64,000 nucleotides of DNA from Merdimmobilis hominis. GTDB lineage: Bacteria > Bacillota > Clostridia > Oscillospirales > Ruminococcaceae. The notes below the pieces were generated by a model, which worked only from the letters and a program-made list of their open reading frames with translations, did not search any database and was not told where the DNA came from. Each line of letters begins with the position of its first letter. The first letter of the stretch is position 1. Below are positions 50,310 through 55,037 of this stretch, one piece after another. The stretch is taken from positions 1,473,142-1,537,141 of the forward strand of contig NZ_LT629939.1 of the NCBI RefSeq assembly GCF_900104615.1, written 5' to 3'. Position numbers and translations under genes: made by a program.

Positions 50310-50537
50310 GGCAATGCCTCCTTTTTCATCCAATTTTATAGGTGGGAACTCTTTGCACCCATTGTAACAACTGTTAGCCTTTCGGTCAAGGAAGTTTTGG
50401 GATGAAAGGCCTGTTTCCCCAGGGGGAAAACAGGAAATCTCCGATAAGTTTTTGCAGGAATAGAAAAAAATCCTGCAAAAAATCTGTGGCAAATGATGAA
50501 ATACACCGAAAAAGAGGAAAAAATGTCCTGTAGGGGG

Positions 50538-50566
50538 TTGCGTATCTGCAAGAATCGTGATACTAT
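50538..50566 (+). promoter_or_regulatory. Promoter of asnA
   Basis: TTGCGT, 17 nt, TACTAT; start near 50573, leader ~46 nt. Confidence 0.65.
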
Positions 50567-50618
50567 TAGAGCATTGTTTTTACAAACACAAACCAACACT
50601 GTAAGGAGGGTATTGCCG

Positions 50619-51632
50619 ATGTCACTGGAGAGATTGCAACTTCCAGAAGGGTACCAGCCCAAGCTGGACATTATGGAAACCGAAATCGCCATCAAACTGC
50701 TGAAGGATACTTTTGAGAGGGAGCTTGCCAATCAGCTCAATTTGACCCGTGTGTCGGCCCCCTTGTTTGTACTGCCGGGCAGCGGCCTCAACGACGACCT
50801 GAACGGGGTGGAGCGCCCGGTTCAGTTTGATGTCAAAGACATGGGGGAGGATGTGCAGATCGTCCACTCCCTGGCTAAATGGAAACGCCAAGCCTTGAAG
50901 CGCTACCACTTCCCCCTGGACAGCGGCCTGTACTGCGATATGAACGCCATCCGCCGGGATGAGGAGCTGGACAACATCCACTCCATCTATGTGGACCAGT
51001 GGGATTGGGAGCGGGTCATCAACCGGGAGGAGCGCAACGTGGAGTTCCTGAAGGAGACGGTCCGCAAGATTGTGGCCGCCCTGCGCCTCACCGAGGAGAA
51101 ACTGATCGCCGCCTACCCGGCCTACACCCCCAAGGTGGCAGAGGACGTCACCTTTATCACCTCCCAGGAGCTGGAGGACCGGTACCCCGGCTTCACCCCC
51201 AAACAGCGGGAGGACGCCATCTGTAAGGAATGCGGTACCGTGTTCCTGATGCAGATCGGTGGCAAGCTCAAAGGCGGCAAGCCCCACGACGGCCGTGCCC
51301 CGGACTACGACGACTGGAAACTCAACGGCGACCTGCTGGTGTGGTACCCCATCCTGGGCCACGCCTTCGAGTTGTCCAGCATGGGCATCCGGGTGGACGA
51401 AAAGGCTATGGAGGAACAGCTGCGGCTGGCAGGATGTGAATCCCGCCGGGAACTTCCCTTCCACAAACAGCTTTTAGCGGGGGAACTGCCCCTGACCATG
51501 GGCGGAGGCATCGGCCAATCCCGCCTGTGCATGTATCTCTTGGAAAAAGCGCACATCGGCGAGGTTCAGGCGGCTGTCTGGCCGGAGAATATGATCCGCC
51601 GCTGTGATGAAAACGGCATCCACCTTCTGTAA
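50619..51632 (+). CDS. asnA: Aspartate-ammonia ligase (asparagine synthetase A)
   Basis: 337 residues from ATG 50619 (AAGGAGGG upstream). Class II synthetase-like enzyme making asparagine from aspartate, ammonia and ATP. Motifs: VSAPLFVLPGSGLNDDLNG, VHSLAKWKRQAL, RRDEELDNIHSIYVDQWDWE (in part), GGGIGQSRLCMYLL. Normal length and complete. Single gene with a terminator. Confidence 0.97.
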   Translation: MSLERLQLPEGYQPKLDIMETEIAIKLLKDTFERELANQLNLTRVSAPLFVLPGSGLNDDLNGVERPVQFDVKDMGEDVQIVHSLAKWKRQALKRYHFPLDSGLYCDMNAIRRDEELDNIHSIYVDQWDWERVINREERNVEFLKETVRKIVAALRLTEEKLIAAYPAYTPKVAEDVTFITSQELEDRYPGFTPKQREDAICKECGTVFLMQIGGKLKGGKPHDGRAPDYDDWKLNGDLLVWYPILGHAFELSSMGIRVDEKAMEEQLRLAGCESRRELPFHKQLLAGELPLTMGGGIGQSRLCMYLLEKAHIGEVQAAVWPENMIRRCDENGIHLL

Positions 51633-51933: not shown

Positions 51934-54252
51934 ATGATCAGGCAGATTGTGAAGCGCGATGGGAGAACCGTTCCCTTCGACGAAAAGAAGATTGCAGATG
52001 CCATCTTCAAGGCGGCGAAAGTGCTGGGGGGCGACAACTACGAGATGGCCCAGGACTTGGCCCATCAGGTTGTCCTCTACCTGGAACAGCAGTACGGTGA
52101 GGTAGAGCCCACCGTGGAACAGGTTCAAGACGCCGTAGAACACACCCTGATCGAAAATGGCCACAGCCGCACCGCCAAGGAGTACATCCTGTACCGCGCC
52201 CAGCGCACCCGGGTGCGGGAGATGAACACGAAGTTGATGAAGATCTATGAAGATCTGACCTTCCAGGACGCGGAGGACAACGACGTCAAACGGGAGAATG
52301 CCAACATCGACGGGGACACCCCCATGGGAACCATGCTGAAGTATGGGTCCGAGGGCGCCAAGCAGTTCTGTGAGATGTACATCCTCGACCCTGCGTATTC
52401 CAAAGCCCACATAGATGGGGATATCCACATCCACGACATGGACTTCTACACTTTGACCACCACCTGTTGCCAGATTGACATTGAAAAGCTGTTCCGCGGC
52501 GGTTTTTCCACCGGCCACGGTTTCCTGCGGGAGCCCAATGACATCCAAAGCTATGCCGCCCTGGGGTGCATTGCCATCCAGTCCAACCAGAACGACCAGC
52601 ATGGCGGCCAGAGCATCCCTAACTTCGACTATGGGATGGCCCACGGGGTGGTAAAGACCTTCCGTAAGCTGTACCGTAAAAACCTGGCAAAAGCCTGTGA
52701 ATTGCTGTGCGGCATGGAAAACGCCGAGGAGACCATCAAAGGGATGATGAACGCCATCCAGGAGGAAACCGGCTTGTACCCCATCCTGGCTGATGACAAT
52801 GGCTATCGGGAAGAGGAAGCCAAACGCTTGGGCGAGATGATGGACCCAGCTTTGGCGGAACACTGCCAGCAGTTCGCCCACAAGAGTGCGGCACAGGAGA
52901 CCGACCGCTCCACCTTCCAAGCCATGGAGGCGCTGGTTCACAACCTGAATACCATGCATTCCCGCGCTGGCGCCCAGGTGCCCTTCAGCTCCATCAACTA
53001 CGGGACCGACACCTCCCCCGAGGGGCGGATGGTCATTAAGAACATCCTGTTGGCCACCGAGGCTGGCCTTGGCAACGGCGAGACCGCCATTTTCCCCATC
53101 CACATCTTCAAGGTGAAAGAGGGGATCAATTACAACGAAGGCGAACCCAACTATGACCTGTTTAAGCTGGCCTGCCGGGTGTCTGCCAAGCGGCTGTTCC
53201 CCAACTTCTCTTTCCTGGATGCACCCTTCAACCTCCAGTACTACAAGCCCGGCGACCCCAATACCGAAGTCGCCTATATGGGCTGCCGCACCCGGGTTAT
53301 GGCTAACGTCCACGACCCCAGCCGGGAGACCACCTTTGGCCGGGGCAACCTGAGCTTTACCTCGGTGAACCTGCCTCGTCTGGCCATCAAAGCCAACCAC
53401 GATGTGGATTTGTTCTTTGAGATGCTGGATCATGAGATCGACCTGGTCATCGACCAGCTGATGGCCCGTTTCCGCCTGCAAGCCTCTAAAAAGGTGCGCA
53501 ACTACCCCTTCCTCATGGGGCAGGGGGTCTGGCTGGACTCCGATAAGCTCTCCCCCGACGACGAGGTGGGCGAAGTGCTCAAACACGGCACCTTGACCAT
53601 GGGCTTCATCGGTTTGGCTGAGTGCCTCAAGGCGCTGACCGGCTACCACCACGGAGAGTCGGCGGAGTCCCAGAAGTTGGGCTTGGAGATCATCGGCTAC
53701 ATGCGCAAACGGATGGATGAGGAATCCCAGAAAACCGGCTTCAACTATTCGTTGATCGCCACCCCTGCCGAGGGCCTCTCCGGCCGGTTCGTGCGGATCG
53801 ACAAAAAGCGGTATGGCATCATCCCCGGGGTTACCGACCGGGAATACTACACCAACTCCTTCCACATTCCGGTGTACTATGAGATCAACGCCTTTGATAA
53901 AATCCGCTTGGAAGCCCCTTACCATGCCCTGACCAACGGCGGGCACATCACCTATGTGGAACTGGACGGCGACCCCAGCAAAAACCTGGAAGCCTTCGAA
54001 GCGGTTGTCCGTTGTATGAAGGAAGCCGGAGTGGGGTACGGCTCGGTGAACCATCCGGTGGACCGGGACCCGGTCTGCGGTTACACTGGCATCATCGACG
54101 ATGTTTGCCCCCGCTGTGGCCGCCGGGAAGGGGAAGGGGTCAGTGTGGCCCACCTGAAACGGATTGGCGCCTATAAAAACTACAATGCCGACACCATCGG
54201 TTACCATGGAGACCCCCATGAGGAGGCCGACCGAATCCCCAACAAAGTGTAA
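51934..54252 (+). CDS. nrdD: Anaerobic ribonucleoside-triphosphate reductase, large catalytic polypeptide without glycyl-radical segment
   Basis: 772 residues reducing ribonucleotides to deoxyribonucleotides under anoxia. Residues 1-95 form the ATP-cone activity switch. The ten-stranded barrel follows with cysteines C178/C179 (TTTCCQ) and C451 (YMGCRTRV) at the active-site positions, SRAGAQVPFSS, and a zinc-site region with C715, C725, C728 (first usual Cys replaced by D712). The normal C-terminal radical segment (RxTGY, then FN, KRAE, VKH) is absent. The chain ends with GEGVSVAHLKRIGAYKN and TIGYHGD. The missing segment is encoded by the next gene. AAATCGGAGGAAG precedes the ATG. Confidence 0.93.
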   Translation: MIRQIVKRDGRTVPFDEKKIADAIFKAAKVLGGDNYEMAQDLAHQVVLYLEQQYGEVEPTVEQVQDAVEHTLIENGHSRTAKEYILYRAQRTRVREMNTKLMKIYEDLTFQDAEDNDVKRENANIDGDTPMGTMLKYGSEGAKQFCEMYILDPAYSKAHIDGDIHIHDMDFYTLTTTCCQIDIEKLFRGGFSTGHGFLREPNDIQSYAALGCIAIQSNQNDQHGGQSIPNFDYGMAHGVVKTFRKLYRKNLAKACELLCGMENAEETIKGMMNAIQEETGLYPILADDNGYREEEAKRLGEMMDPALAEHCQQFAHKSAAQETDRSTFQAMEALVHNLNTMHSRAGAQVPFSSINYGTDTSPEGRMVIKNILLATEAGLGNGETAIFPIHIFKVKEGINYNEGEPNYDLFKLACRVSAKRLFPNFSFLDAPFNLQYYKPGDPNTEVAYMGCRTRVMANVHDPSRETTFGRGNLSFTSVNLPRLAIKANHDVDLFFEMLDHEIDLVIDQLMARFRLQASKKVRNYPFLMGQGVWLDSDKLSPDDEVGEVLKHGTLTMGFIGLAECLKALTGYHHGESAESQKLGLEIIGYMRKRMDEESQKTGFNYSLIATPAEGLSGRFVRIDKKRYGIIPGVTDREYYTNSFHIPVYYEINAFDKIRLEAPYHALTNGGHITYVELDGDPSKNLEAFEAVVRCMKEAGVGYGSVNHPVDRDPVCGYTGIIDDVCPRCGRREGEGVSVAHLKRIGAYKNYNADTIGYHGDPHEEADRIPNKV

Positions 54253-54313
54253 TAATTATTGTTTATTCAACAAATAGTATCTATATTCATCCATTTTGAA
54301 GGAGGAACCTGTT

Positions 54314-54493
54314 ATGCAAACCACACAATACAATGAAGAAGAAATCATGATTGGTGAAGGCGTCGGCTTTGAGCGGATCCGCCGGATCACCGGTTACCTG
54401 GTGGGCACCTTGGATCGGTTCAACAACGCCAAACGGGCGGAAGAGCGGGATCGGGTGAAGCATTCGGTCACCTCCCCCATGGAGCGCATTTAA
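54314..54493 (+). CDS. Stand-alone glycyl-radical domain of anaerobic ribonucleotide reductase
   Basis: 59 residues from ATG 54314, 61 nt after the nrdD stop, with its own strong GAAGGAGG. Residues 13-50 reproduce the conserved C-terminus of NrdD: GEGVGFERIRRITGYLVG, then DRFNNAKRAEERDRVKH. G27 in RITGY is the expected radical glycine. The N-terminal 12 residues (TTQYNEEEI) are acidic and not part of the usual domain. Its stop overlaps the nrdG start by 1 nt, so it is translated together with the activase. It should dock into NrdD like the detached radical domain GrcA/YfiD does with pyruvate formate-lyase; this is inference. TTG 54296 is an alternative start. Confidence 0.85.
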   Translation: MQTTQYNEEEIMIGEGVGFERIRRITGYLVGTLDRFNNAKRAEERDRVKHSVTSPMERI

Positions 54494-54993
54494 TGCTGCG
54501 GATCGCTGGAATTGTCCGGGAATCCATTGTGGATGGCCCAGGCCTGCGGTTTGTGGTGTTTACCCAAGGGTGCCCCCACCACTGCCCTCACTGCCACAAC
54601 CCGGAGAGCCATGACCCTACAGGTGGGTACCTGATTGAGGAGGGGAAGATTCTGGAGGAATACCGGAAGAACCCACTCCTCTCCGGGATCACCTTCTCCG
54701 GCGGGGAGCCCACCCTCCAGGCCAAAGAGCTGGTCCCCATCGCCCGGGCCGTGGTGGAGGATGGCAAGTACAATGTGATCTTCAGTGGGTACACCTTTGA
54801 GGAGCTGATGAAGCGCTGCGAAACGGAACCCGAGCTGTGGGAGCTGCTGGGCCTTTGCCGATACCTGATCGATGGGCGGTATGTCCACGAACAGCGGGAT
54901 TTGACCCTTCATTTCCGGGGGAGCCGCAACCAGCGGATCATCGACCTGCCGGCCTCCCTGCCCTCCAAAACCCCGGTGGTGGTGGAGCTGTAA
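54493..54993 (+). CDS. nrdG: Anaerobic ribonucleotide reductase activating protein (radical SAM)
   Basis: 166 residues. The 4Fe-4S cluster motif is CPHHCPHC (C27, C31, C34), followed by SGGEPTLQ for SAM binding. It makes the glycyl radical on NrdD, here presumably on G27 of the 59-residue peptide encoded just before it. The start overlaps that gene by 1 nt (TAATG), which supports paired production of activase and substrate peptide. Confidence 0.96.
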   Translation: MLRIAGIVRESIVDGPGLRFVVFTQGCPHHCPHCHNPESHDPTGGYLIEEGKILEEYRKNPLLSGITFSGGEPTLQAKELVPIARAVVEDGKYNVIFSGYTFEELMKRCETEPELWELLGLCRYLIDGRYVHEQRDLTLHFRGSRNQRIIDLPASLPSKTPVVVEL

Positions 54994-55003
54994 TCAAAAG
55001 AGA

Positions 55004-55037
55004 AAAACGGACGGATCCATAGATCCGTCCGTTTTTT
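55004..55037 (+). terminator. Terminator of the nrd operon
   Basis: 14-bp perfect stem AAAACGGACGGATC / GATCCGTCCGTTTT, 4-nt loop, six T. Confidence 0.95.

Follow-up and report, generated by a model that had tools for sequence, protein, structure and literature searches.

How can an anaerobic ribonucleotide reductase function when its catalytic chain ends before the glycine that should carry its radical? This question is raised by a 64,000-nucleotide stretch of contig NZ_LT629939.1 of Merdimmobilis hominis (the whole stretch is referred to below as the window), in which the loop bearing this glycine is encoded not by nrdD but by a separate gene of 59 codons, situated between nrdD and the activase gene nrdG. 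In strict anaerobes, class III reductases rank among the chief suppliers of new DNA precursors. In the portions of the papers available to us, the class III enzymes described carry the radical glycine on their own chain. An earlier sequence-only reading of the locus had proposed that here the radical is made on the small, trans-acting peptide, which would complete the NrdD active site. Comparison with relatives supports this proposal well, since the pair appears to be the sole reductase of its genome, truncated NrdDs and detached domains co-occur, the small gene is under purifying selection, and the fold model of a relative is consistent with docking.

A class III reductase divided between two genes

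The locus is composed of the following features:

51934..54252, + strand: nrdD, catalytic chain of a class III ribonucleotide reductase, without the glycyl-radical loop (772 aa, stop TAA)
51943..52209, + strand: ATP-cone domain, NrdD residues 4-92 (PF03477, 85 bits)
52465..52470, + strand: active-site cysteines C178/C179 (C178 invariant in a 48-row alignment of split NrdDs)
53284..53286, + strand: finger-loop radical cysteine C451 (MGCR, in the context YMGCRTR; invariant in the same alignment)
54076..54117, + strand: zinc ribbon with cysteines C715, C725 and C728 (invariant in the same alignment)
54124..54249, + strand: C-terminal tail of NrdD, residues 731-772, occupying the place of the glycyl-radical loop (alignments, position-specific scoring matrix (PSSM), tails of 68 relatives)
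54298..54305, + strand: Shine-Dalgarno GAAGGAGG of the small gene, eight bases upstream of its ATG (from the sequence)
54314..54493, + strand: detached glycyl-radical domain gene, 59 aa (PF13597 positions 533-562; PDB 8p23 residues 707-738; conservation)
54392..54394, + strand: codon of the radical glycine G27, in RRITGYLVG (from the sequence; Gly conserved among relatives)
54493..54993, + strand: nrdG, radical S-adenosylmethionine activase, 166 aa, CxxxCxxC (TIGR02491, 128.7 bits, cut-off 126.1)
55007..55037, + strand: hairpin and T-run 3' of nrdG, probably the terminator of the three-gene operon (read by eye)

The name detached glycyl-radical domain gene is descriptive and our own; the gene has no dedicated family model in NCBIfam, Pfam or PHROGs, where only the C-terminal end of NrdD models matches its product. 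The two proteins divide the Pfam family NRDD (PF13597) between them: NrdD covers profile positions 1-542 of 562 with 649.8 bits, and the 59-residue protein matches positions 533-562 only, with 31.2 bits (cut-off 26.2). The NCBIfam NrdD models align to the small protein at their C-terminal end only, and a search of solved structures aligned it to residues 707-738, radical loop included, of the NrdD of Prevotella copri, which is also the best solved relative of the window NrdD (PDB 8p23). A regular expression for the radical loop gave a single match across all six frames of the window. Coordinates and profile boundaries thus agree with the earlier description of a 772-residue NrdD without the loop and of a 59-codon gene carrying it behind its own Shine-Dalgarno. 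The spacing was likewise confirmed in the sequence: the ATG of the small gene lies 61 nt past the nrdD stop, in frame +1 relative to nrdD, and the start of nrdG overlaps the small-gene stop by 1 nt (TAATG). The gap between the nrdD stop and this ATG contains a stop codon in all three frames.

The locus displays an NRDD barrel with the finger-loop and active-site cysteines of class III enzymes and an adjacent NrdG activase, and NrdD alone lacks the glycyl-radical loop on its own C-terminus. Because this loop is encoded by the separate gene at 54314-54493, the pair, and not NrdD alone, constitutes the class III enzyme. One detail of the sequence-only reading had to be corrected, namely the zinc ribbon, in which the window NrdD has three cysteines and not the four of a CxxC...CxxC site: it reads RDPVC where P. 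copri has RCLDC, and the first CxxC cysteine is absent. The three-cysteine ribbon is not a mark of the split, since RDPVC also occurs in four of the five fused relatives of the alignment and the fifth reads RDPCC.

The only reductase found in the genome

The window genome comprises 2.58 Mb in 3 contigs, with a completeness estimate of 100%. Only two NRDD matches were found in it, namely nrdD and the small gene. A search for PF02867, the catalytic domain of class I/II enzymes, was positive in 11 of 14 control genomes and negative in this one. Neither a second intact nrdD, which the sequence-only reading had named as evidence that would speak against it, nor a class I/II enzyme was thus found by these NRDD and PF02867 searches. 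The split enzyme should therefore be the genome's only ribonucleotide reductase and the supplier of its DNA precursors, barring a missed reductase.

The small gene as a separate, conserved gene

Among 68 loci in which a small gene adjoins a truncated nrdD, its frame relative to nrdD was +1 in 28, 0 in 23 and +2 in 17, and its length ranged from 48 to 78 codons with the chosen starts. Upstream of the first suitable ATG, a Shine-Dalgarno motif of 5 nt is present in 60 of 65 cases, against 17.7 expected from shuffled upstream bases, and one of 4 nt in 63 of 65, against 31.2. These figures bear on the alternative that a fused protein is still made through stop-codon readthrough, frameshifting or splicing, for which it can be said that in 17 of the 68 loci a single stop codon separates two frames that are in register. 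The spread over all three frames, the stops in every frame of the window gap, the excess of Shine-Dalgarno motifs over the shuffles and the six family genomes in which the domain does not adjoin nrdD at all make such a fusion very unlikely.

The radical glycine is kept in 68/68 adjacent-split loci, 80/80 of the best GTDB loci and 82/83 viral loci (both sets are described below), the T-G-Y-L core having been excluded from matching; the viral exception, L293, reads ITGYLS with a register shift. The later Asn, Lys, Glu, Arg, Lys and His of the small protein are each present in 59/59 sequences anchored on the loop. The pooled ratio of non-synonymous to synonymous polymorphism (pN/pS) of these 59 sequences was 0.19; between the window and its nearest relative the non-synonymous divergence (dN) was 0.044, with synonymous sites saturated. 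The small peptide is under strong purifying selection. An NrdG-type frame was found downstream within the flank in 23 of the 27 detached loci caught by the first regular expression.

Conservation of this kind also bears on the reading of the locus as a product of faulty assembly or sequencing, or as an nrdD pseudogene in decay. Nothing was found in its favor; the selection on the small gene, the absence of another detectable reductase and the recurrence of the same architecture in many independent assemblies, named isolates included (L042, L053), leave it almost certainly wrong. The same recurrence answers the concern, voiced in the sequence-only reading, that the nrdD stop might be a sequencing error.

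A further alternative is that the small protein is a spare part, akin to GrcA/YfiD, for pyruvate formate-lyase or another glycyl-radical enzyme, its position being incidental. The resemblance is real in so far as both are stand-alone glycyl-radical domains. GrcA carries PF01228, and the 59-residue protein gave no match to this Gly_radical family at E up to 1 while matching NrdD models significantly; in addition, its gene sits between a truncated nrdD and nrdG, and a domain of this kind is present in nearly every genome whose NrdD is truncated. We therefore consider this alternative highly improbable. Weak matches of the small protein to unrelated families (E 0.03-0.2) were disregarded.

Upstream of the operon, the window contains at 50493-51632 a gene resembling asparagine synthetase A, presumably an aspartate-ammonia ligase.

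Distribution of fused and truncated NrdD

The sequence-only reading had suggested comparing relatives for the three-gene order and for fused versus detached forms. Within the family of M. hominis, the 59-residue query matched 134 of 197 genomes, with fused and detached forms pooled, and a census with PF13597 gave a match in 70 of 76 genomes. Of the latter, 34 have a fused NrdD only, 8 a fused NrdD and a distant detached domain, and 1 a fused NrdD with two tandem domains; NrdD is truncated in 25, and 2 contain unclassifiable fragments. Among the truncated class, the small gene adjoins nrdD in 15 genomes and is found both adjoining and elsewhere in 2; the domain is only distant in 5 (G014, G029, G034, G048, G070), and 2 (G019, G064) encode a fused NrdD in addition to a detached domain. 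A detached domain is therefore found in 24/25 truncated-NrdD genomes versus 8/43 fused-only genomes (Fisher p = 1.4e-10), a count that omits the 2 genomes with fragmentary matches (G069, G071) and the 6 without a match.

The pattern extends to a phylum-wide draw of 86 genomes, 73 of which have a PF13597 match. With the window genome set aside, the detached domain is present in 5/5 truncated versus 3/63 fused genomes (p = 5e-6), omitting 4 interrupted or weak cases (G228, G232, G249, G257) and 13 without a match, and counting G000 in the family only. Both p-values overstate independence because the genomes are related; two of the five, G200 and G243, belong to one genus. The truncation of G223 was called from profile coordinates only, its NrdD in L298 having been missed by the regular expression, and the 49-residue frame of G272, missed in L296, comes from the profile census.

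One locus of this draw, L295 (G200), has an NrdD of a different type (KVCGYLGII...CPNCGS zinc ribbon) at 560-2641, followed by a small frame at 2671-2976. Its detached domain is a frame of about 100 codons with an N-terminal stretch of its own, located between nrdD and an nrdG-like frame, and perhaps represents an independent split.

In 64 of the best 80 GTDB species-genome loci, the small gene comes after a truncated NrdD frame of 600 codons or more; 5 loci are fused, and the other 11 are cut by contig ends or unparsed (L107 reads as fused). This share of splits is not a frequency, since the loci are the best matches to a detached query. They include Massiliimalia timonensis (L042; NCBI family Oscillospiraceae), Scatolibacter rhodanostii (L053), Butyricicoccus, Desulfovibrio, Fibrobacter, Mogibacterium, Erysipelotrichaceae and Anaerobiospirillum, although single names may be wrong because most of the 80 are metagenome assemblies.

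NrdD tails and the history of the split

In a FastTree tree of the NrdD core (132 rows, tail removed), the adjacent-split label changes 14 times and the distant-split label 4 times; branches with good support force at least 9 and at least 3 of these changes, respectively. A mixture-model tree of 69 rows, containing 34 of the 68 adjacent-split rows and obtained by a short search, requires 18 changes between split and fused, and its starred branches force at least 8 changes for the fused label. NrdDs have thus switched repeatedly between the fused and the split form; the trees do not separate gain from loss of the split.

The tails left behind on NrdD are themselves patterned. Counted from the zinc ribbon, the 68 adjacent-split tails have Glu at place 5 in 62/68, and Val/Ile/Leu at place 7 and Leu/Val/Ile at place 12 in 68/68 each; they frequently open with EGEGVxxEKL, and the alignment places the start of the tail beneath the first half of the fused radical loop. 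The window NrdD tail is possibly a degenerate copy of the start of the loop. A possible step towards such a state is seen in L132 (G056, contig 417), where a fused NrdD of 853 codons ends in a tandem pair of complete glycyl-radical domains. The likeness of the tail and L132 would both fit a duplication after which the first copy lost its loop. A PSSM test of this origin gave moderate and mixed results, the small-gene PSSM scoring 34 of 74 tails above 99% of shuffles and the fused-gene PSSM only 7 of 74. A YPxMP tail type, found in 27/68 by regular expression, occurs in Bacillota, Thermodesulfobacteriota and Fibrobacterota, and this span of three phyla speaks against many fresh splits and in favor of an old one, followed by re-fusions or transfer.

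Distant splits and stand-alone domains

In six family genomes (L162-L167), the truncated NrdD has no adjoining radical domain. Most of these distant-split NrdDs stop only a few residues away from where the glycine would be (L162 ...VGFERIKRIR*, L165 ...ERIKRIQCQC*, L167 ...KIPRIKV*), as does L297 from outside the family (...FERIHRITE*), and no loop remnant was seen in the translated 600 bases past the six nrdD stops. The radical domain is carried elsewhere in the genome by a protein of about 95 residues with a conserved N-terminal stretch (V-x-V-x-G-G-x-L...I-x-x-D-G-D-Y-V-D-L). Its fold model has an N-terminal beta-alpha-beta-beta arrangement (block predicted local distance difference test score (pLDDT) 77-84, predicted template modelling score 0.43); a search of the PDB for fold relatives gave no significant match (best E 0.26), in a list rich in ribosome proteins and hibernation factors. 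By analogy, the distant-split genes look like a genomic copy of the oxygen-cut state, with an enzyme cut at the radical site and a replacement piece.

Stand-alone domains also occur alongside fused NrdD in the 8 of 43 fused-only family genomes noted above, mostly in the form of about 95 residues among those read. As judged from their sequences, the latter are candidate spare parts for the class III reductase. Stand-alone genes for proteins of this length lie away from nrdD in L113-L120, L122-L128, L168-L174 and L177, several of them in fused-NrdD genomes. Outside the family of M. hominis, stand-alone NrdD-type domains with dissimilar N-terminal stretches of about 50 residues were observed in L301 (G267), L302 (G227) and L303 and L304 (G242); the NrdD of these genomes is fused.

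The protein of about 95 residues, with its small N-terminal domain joined to an NrdD radical loop, is also found in viral contigs. A search there with an alignment of this form matched 418 stretches; 396 of them are relatives and may include fused genes, since the search patterns fall within the loop, and the 80 best were retained. All 83 viral loci (L212-L294, IMG/VR) read as frames of fewer than 250 codons. When 20 viral records (up to 251 kb) were searched whole, the stand-alone domain was the sole NRDD match in 17, and 3 had a truncated nrdD nearby, with the limit that the records may be fragmentary and that host DNA can be present in IMG/VR contigs. Truncated nrdD, small gene and nrdG occur together in 5/83 viral loci (L212, L213, L251, L268, L281), two of which are near copies. 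In four viral loci, 10 of 32 neighboring frames were tested and 7 match phage families, mostly of unknown function; the phage-family neighbors include clamp loaders, an HNH endonuclease and a transposase. A phage-borne NrdD-type domain would parallel Y06I, which phage T4 carries for pyruvate formate-lyase according to the portion of the source available (PMC8683613).

The sequence-only reading had also suggested that a separate piece could be replaced or could set the dose of activity, and the stand-alone domains beside fused NrdDs and in viral contigs make this idea more plausible. In its widest form, the detached domains would be exchangeable radical cartridges: a host spare, in the form of about 95 residues, for an oxygen-cut fused NrdD, a means for phages carrying that form to re-arm the host reductase during infection and, in several lineages including that of the window, a piece needed at every turnover by a pre-cut NrdD. 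We put this forward tentatively, at somewhat short of an even chance. A competing explanation concerns the advantage of the split and not the two-part mechanism. It holds that the split is functionally neutral, the last piece having been separated by duplication and loss so that the halves became interdependent with no benefit for repair or dosage. The many switches on the trees and the fused relatives within the family suggest that neither form is strongly favored, and the tandem domains of L132 provide a plausible duplication step; the stand-alone domains in 8/43 fused-only genomes and in 17/20 viral records without nrdD, which are possibly fragments, are hard to explain in this way. Neutrality retains a substantial probability, though it too is rather to be doubted than believed.

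Structure model and proposed mechanism

To obtain a chain for modeling with AlphaFold 2, the relative L048 was used, in which nrdD and the small gene are in register and the single stop was read as Gln. Because an alignment with fused rows (A1) divided the fused loop between the NrdD tail and the small gene, the fold run used a second one (A2), in which truncated rows are cut after the zinc ribbon. The model has a mean pLDDT of 83, and the start of the NrdD tail (731-740) forms a short strand and a helix with pLDDT 87. In VIA-align comparisons, model residues 91-852 correspond to residues 85-735 of P. copri 8p2s_B (Z 45.8, root-mean-square deviation (rmsd) 3.0) and residues 98-854 to 33-647 of the T. 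maritima NrdD 4u3e_B (Z 31.4, rmsd 3.1); other PDB entries gave whole-chain rmsd up to 15. Assuming ungapped ends, G828 of the model falls on the radical glycine Gly711 of P. copri and on Gly621 of T. maritima. The detached domain is thus modeled roughly where the fused domain sits, which is consistent with docking and is not proof of it.

We propose the following course of events for the window enzyme. NrdD would fold as an ATP-cone and a ten-stranded barrel, its chain ending past the zinc ribbon in a short tail that lacks the glycine. Translated from a separate start site within the operon, the 59-residue protein would be the missing glycyl-radical domain and would dock into the barrel, bringing G27 to the finger-loop cysteine C451. 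NrdG would then abstract a hydrogen from G27, giving the radical that starts each reduction, and the whole would be an obligate two-part class III ribonucleotide reductase. It is highly probable that the radical is formed by NrdG on a domain acting in trans, which docks into NrdD, and that NrdD uses it; docking and radical chemistry in trans are inferred from homology and from the fold model of the relative.

Several points weigh against this reading. The contamination estimate of the window genome is 4.82%. One truncated-NrdD genome, G015 (L176), the seventh in the family without an adjoining domain, has no detached domain at all, in an assembly that is 55% complete. In the L048 model, mean pLDDT falls to 50 and 38 over residues 821-840 and G828 lies in a stretch below 50, and the end offsets from T4 structures disagree among themselves. 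The modeled chain is moreover that of a relative, tethered by an artificial read-through, so that the predictor may recall the fused fold. The structural check suggested in the sequence-only reading therefore came out weakly favorable: the position of the domain roughly agrees with that in fused enzymes, and the local confidence and the tether limit what can be drawn from it.

Relation to known systems

The split reductase of Pseudomonas aeruginosa belongs to a different class and has no glycyl radical. What the window enzyme has in common with that class II reductase is its distribution over two polypeptides, as far as can be told from a title cited in PMC9669993. Closest in domain content is the P. 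copri NrdD (PDB 8p23), with which the window NrdD shares the ATP-cone, the barrel, the MGCR finger loop and, with three cysteines, a putative zinc ribbon. In that enzyme the radical domain is formed by residues 676-739 of the same chain, with the radical glycine Gly711 (PMC11226230, in the part available), whereas the window encodes it as a protein of its own.

GrcA/YfiD of E. coli and Y06I of phage T4 are described, in the portion of the source at hand, as host- and phage-borne spare parts of pyruvate formate-lyase (PMC8683613). The window protein is like them a stand-alone glycyl-radical domain, proposed here to act in trans. Unlike GrcA/YfiD, it belongs to NrdD, lies in its operon and occurs in a genome without a loop-bearing NrdD; GrcA replaces the damaged piece of an enzyme that normally has one, and the window NrdD has none of its own. 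A partner with its own radical domain, to which the small protein would be a spare accessory, is thus missing in the window genome and present in the 8 of 43 fused-only genomes with a stand-alone domain.

Interrupted nrdD genes have been reported in phages. In the available parts of the sources, the nrdD of Aeromonas phiAS4 and of Jug phages occurs in several pieces, described as fragmentation or as interruption by introns and endonucleases (PMC3653736; PMC12363816); unlike nrdD as described there, the window split separates the radical domain. For the Jug-phage gene, present in four fragments, no splicing was seen between the 230-aa and 91-aa fragments (PMC12363816), and instead of arising from an intron, the 91-aa fragment may correspond to a detached radical domain. 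In the open-access literature, we found no earlier description of a detached NrdD radical domain.

Significance for anaerobic DNA precursor synthesis

As predicted from gene content, the two-part arrangement recurs in many bacteria and some phages. Since the family libraries searched contain no model of the small protein beyond the C-terminal end of NrdD models, genomes that encode it may be misread as having an incomplete reductase. The finding also bears, at the level of sequence, on a speculation of 2021 that pyruvate formate-lyase is not the only glycyl-radical enzyme with spare parts (PMC8683613, in the part available). With the two-part form, production, activation, exchange and counting of the radical piece would be independent of the large chain, which we estimate at ~87 kDa. 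It would thereby make the timing of NrdG action, half-of-sites activation and the revival of an oxygen-cut reductase questions that can be addressed by mixing proteins.

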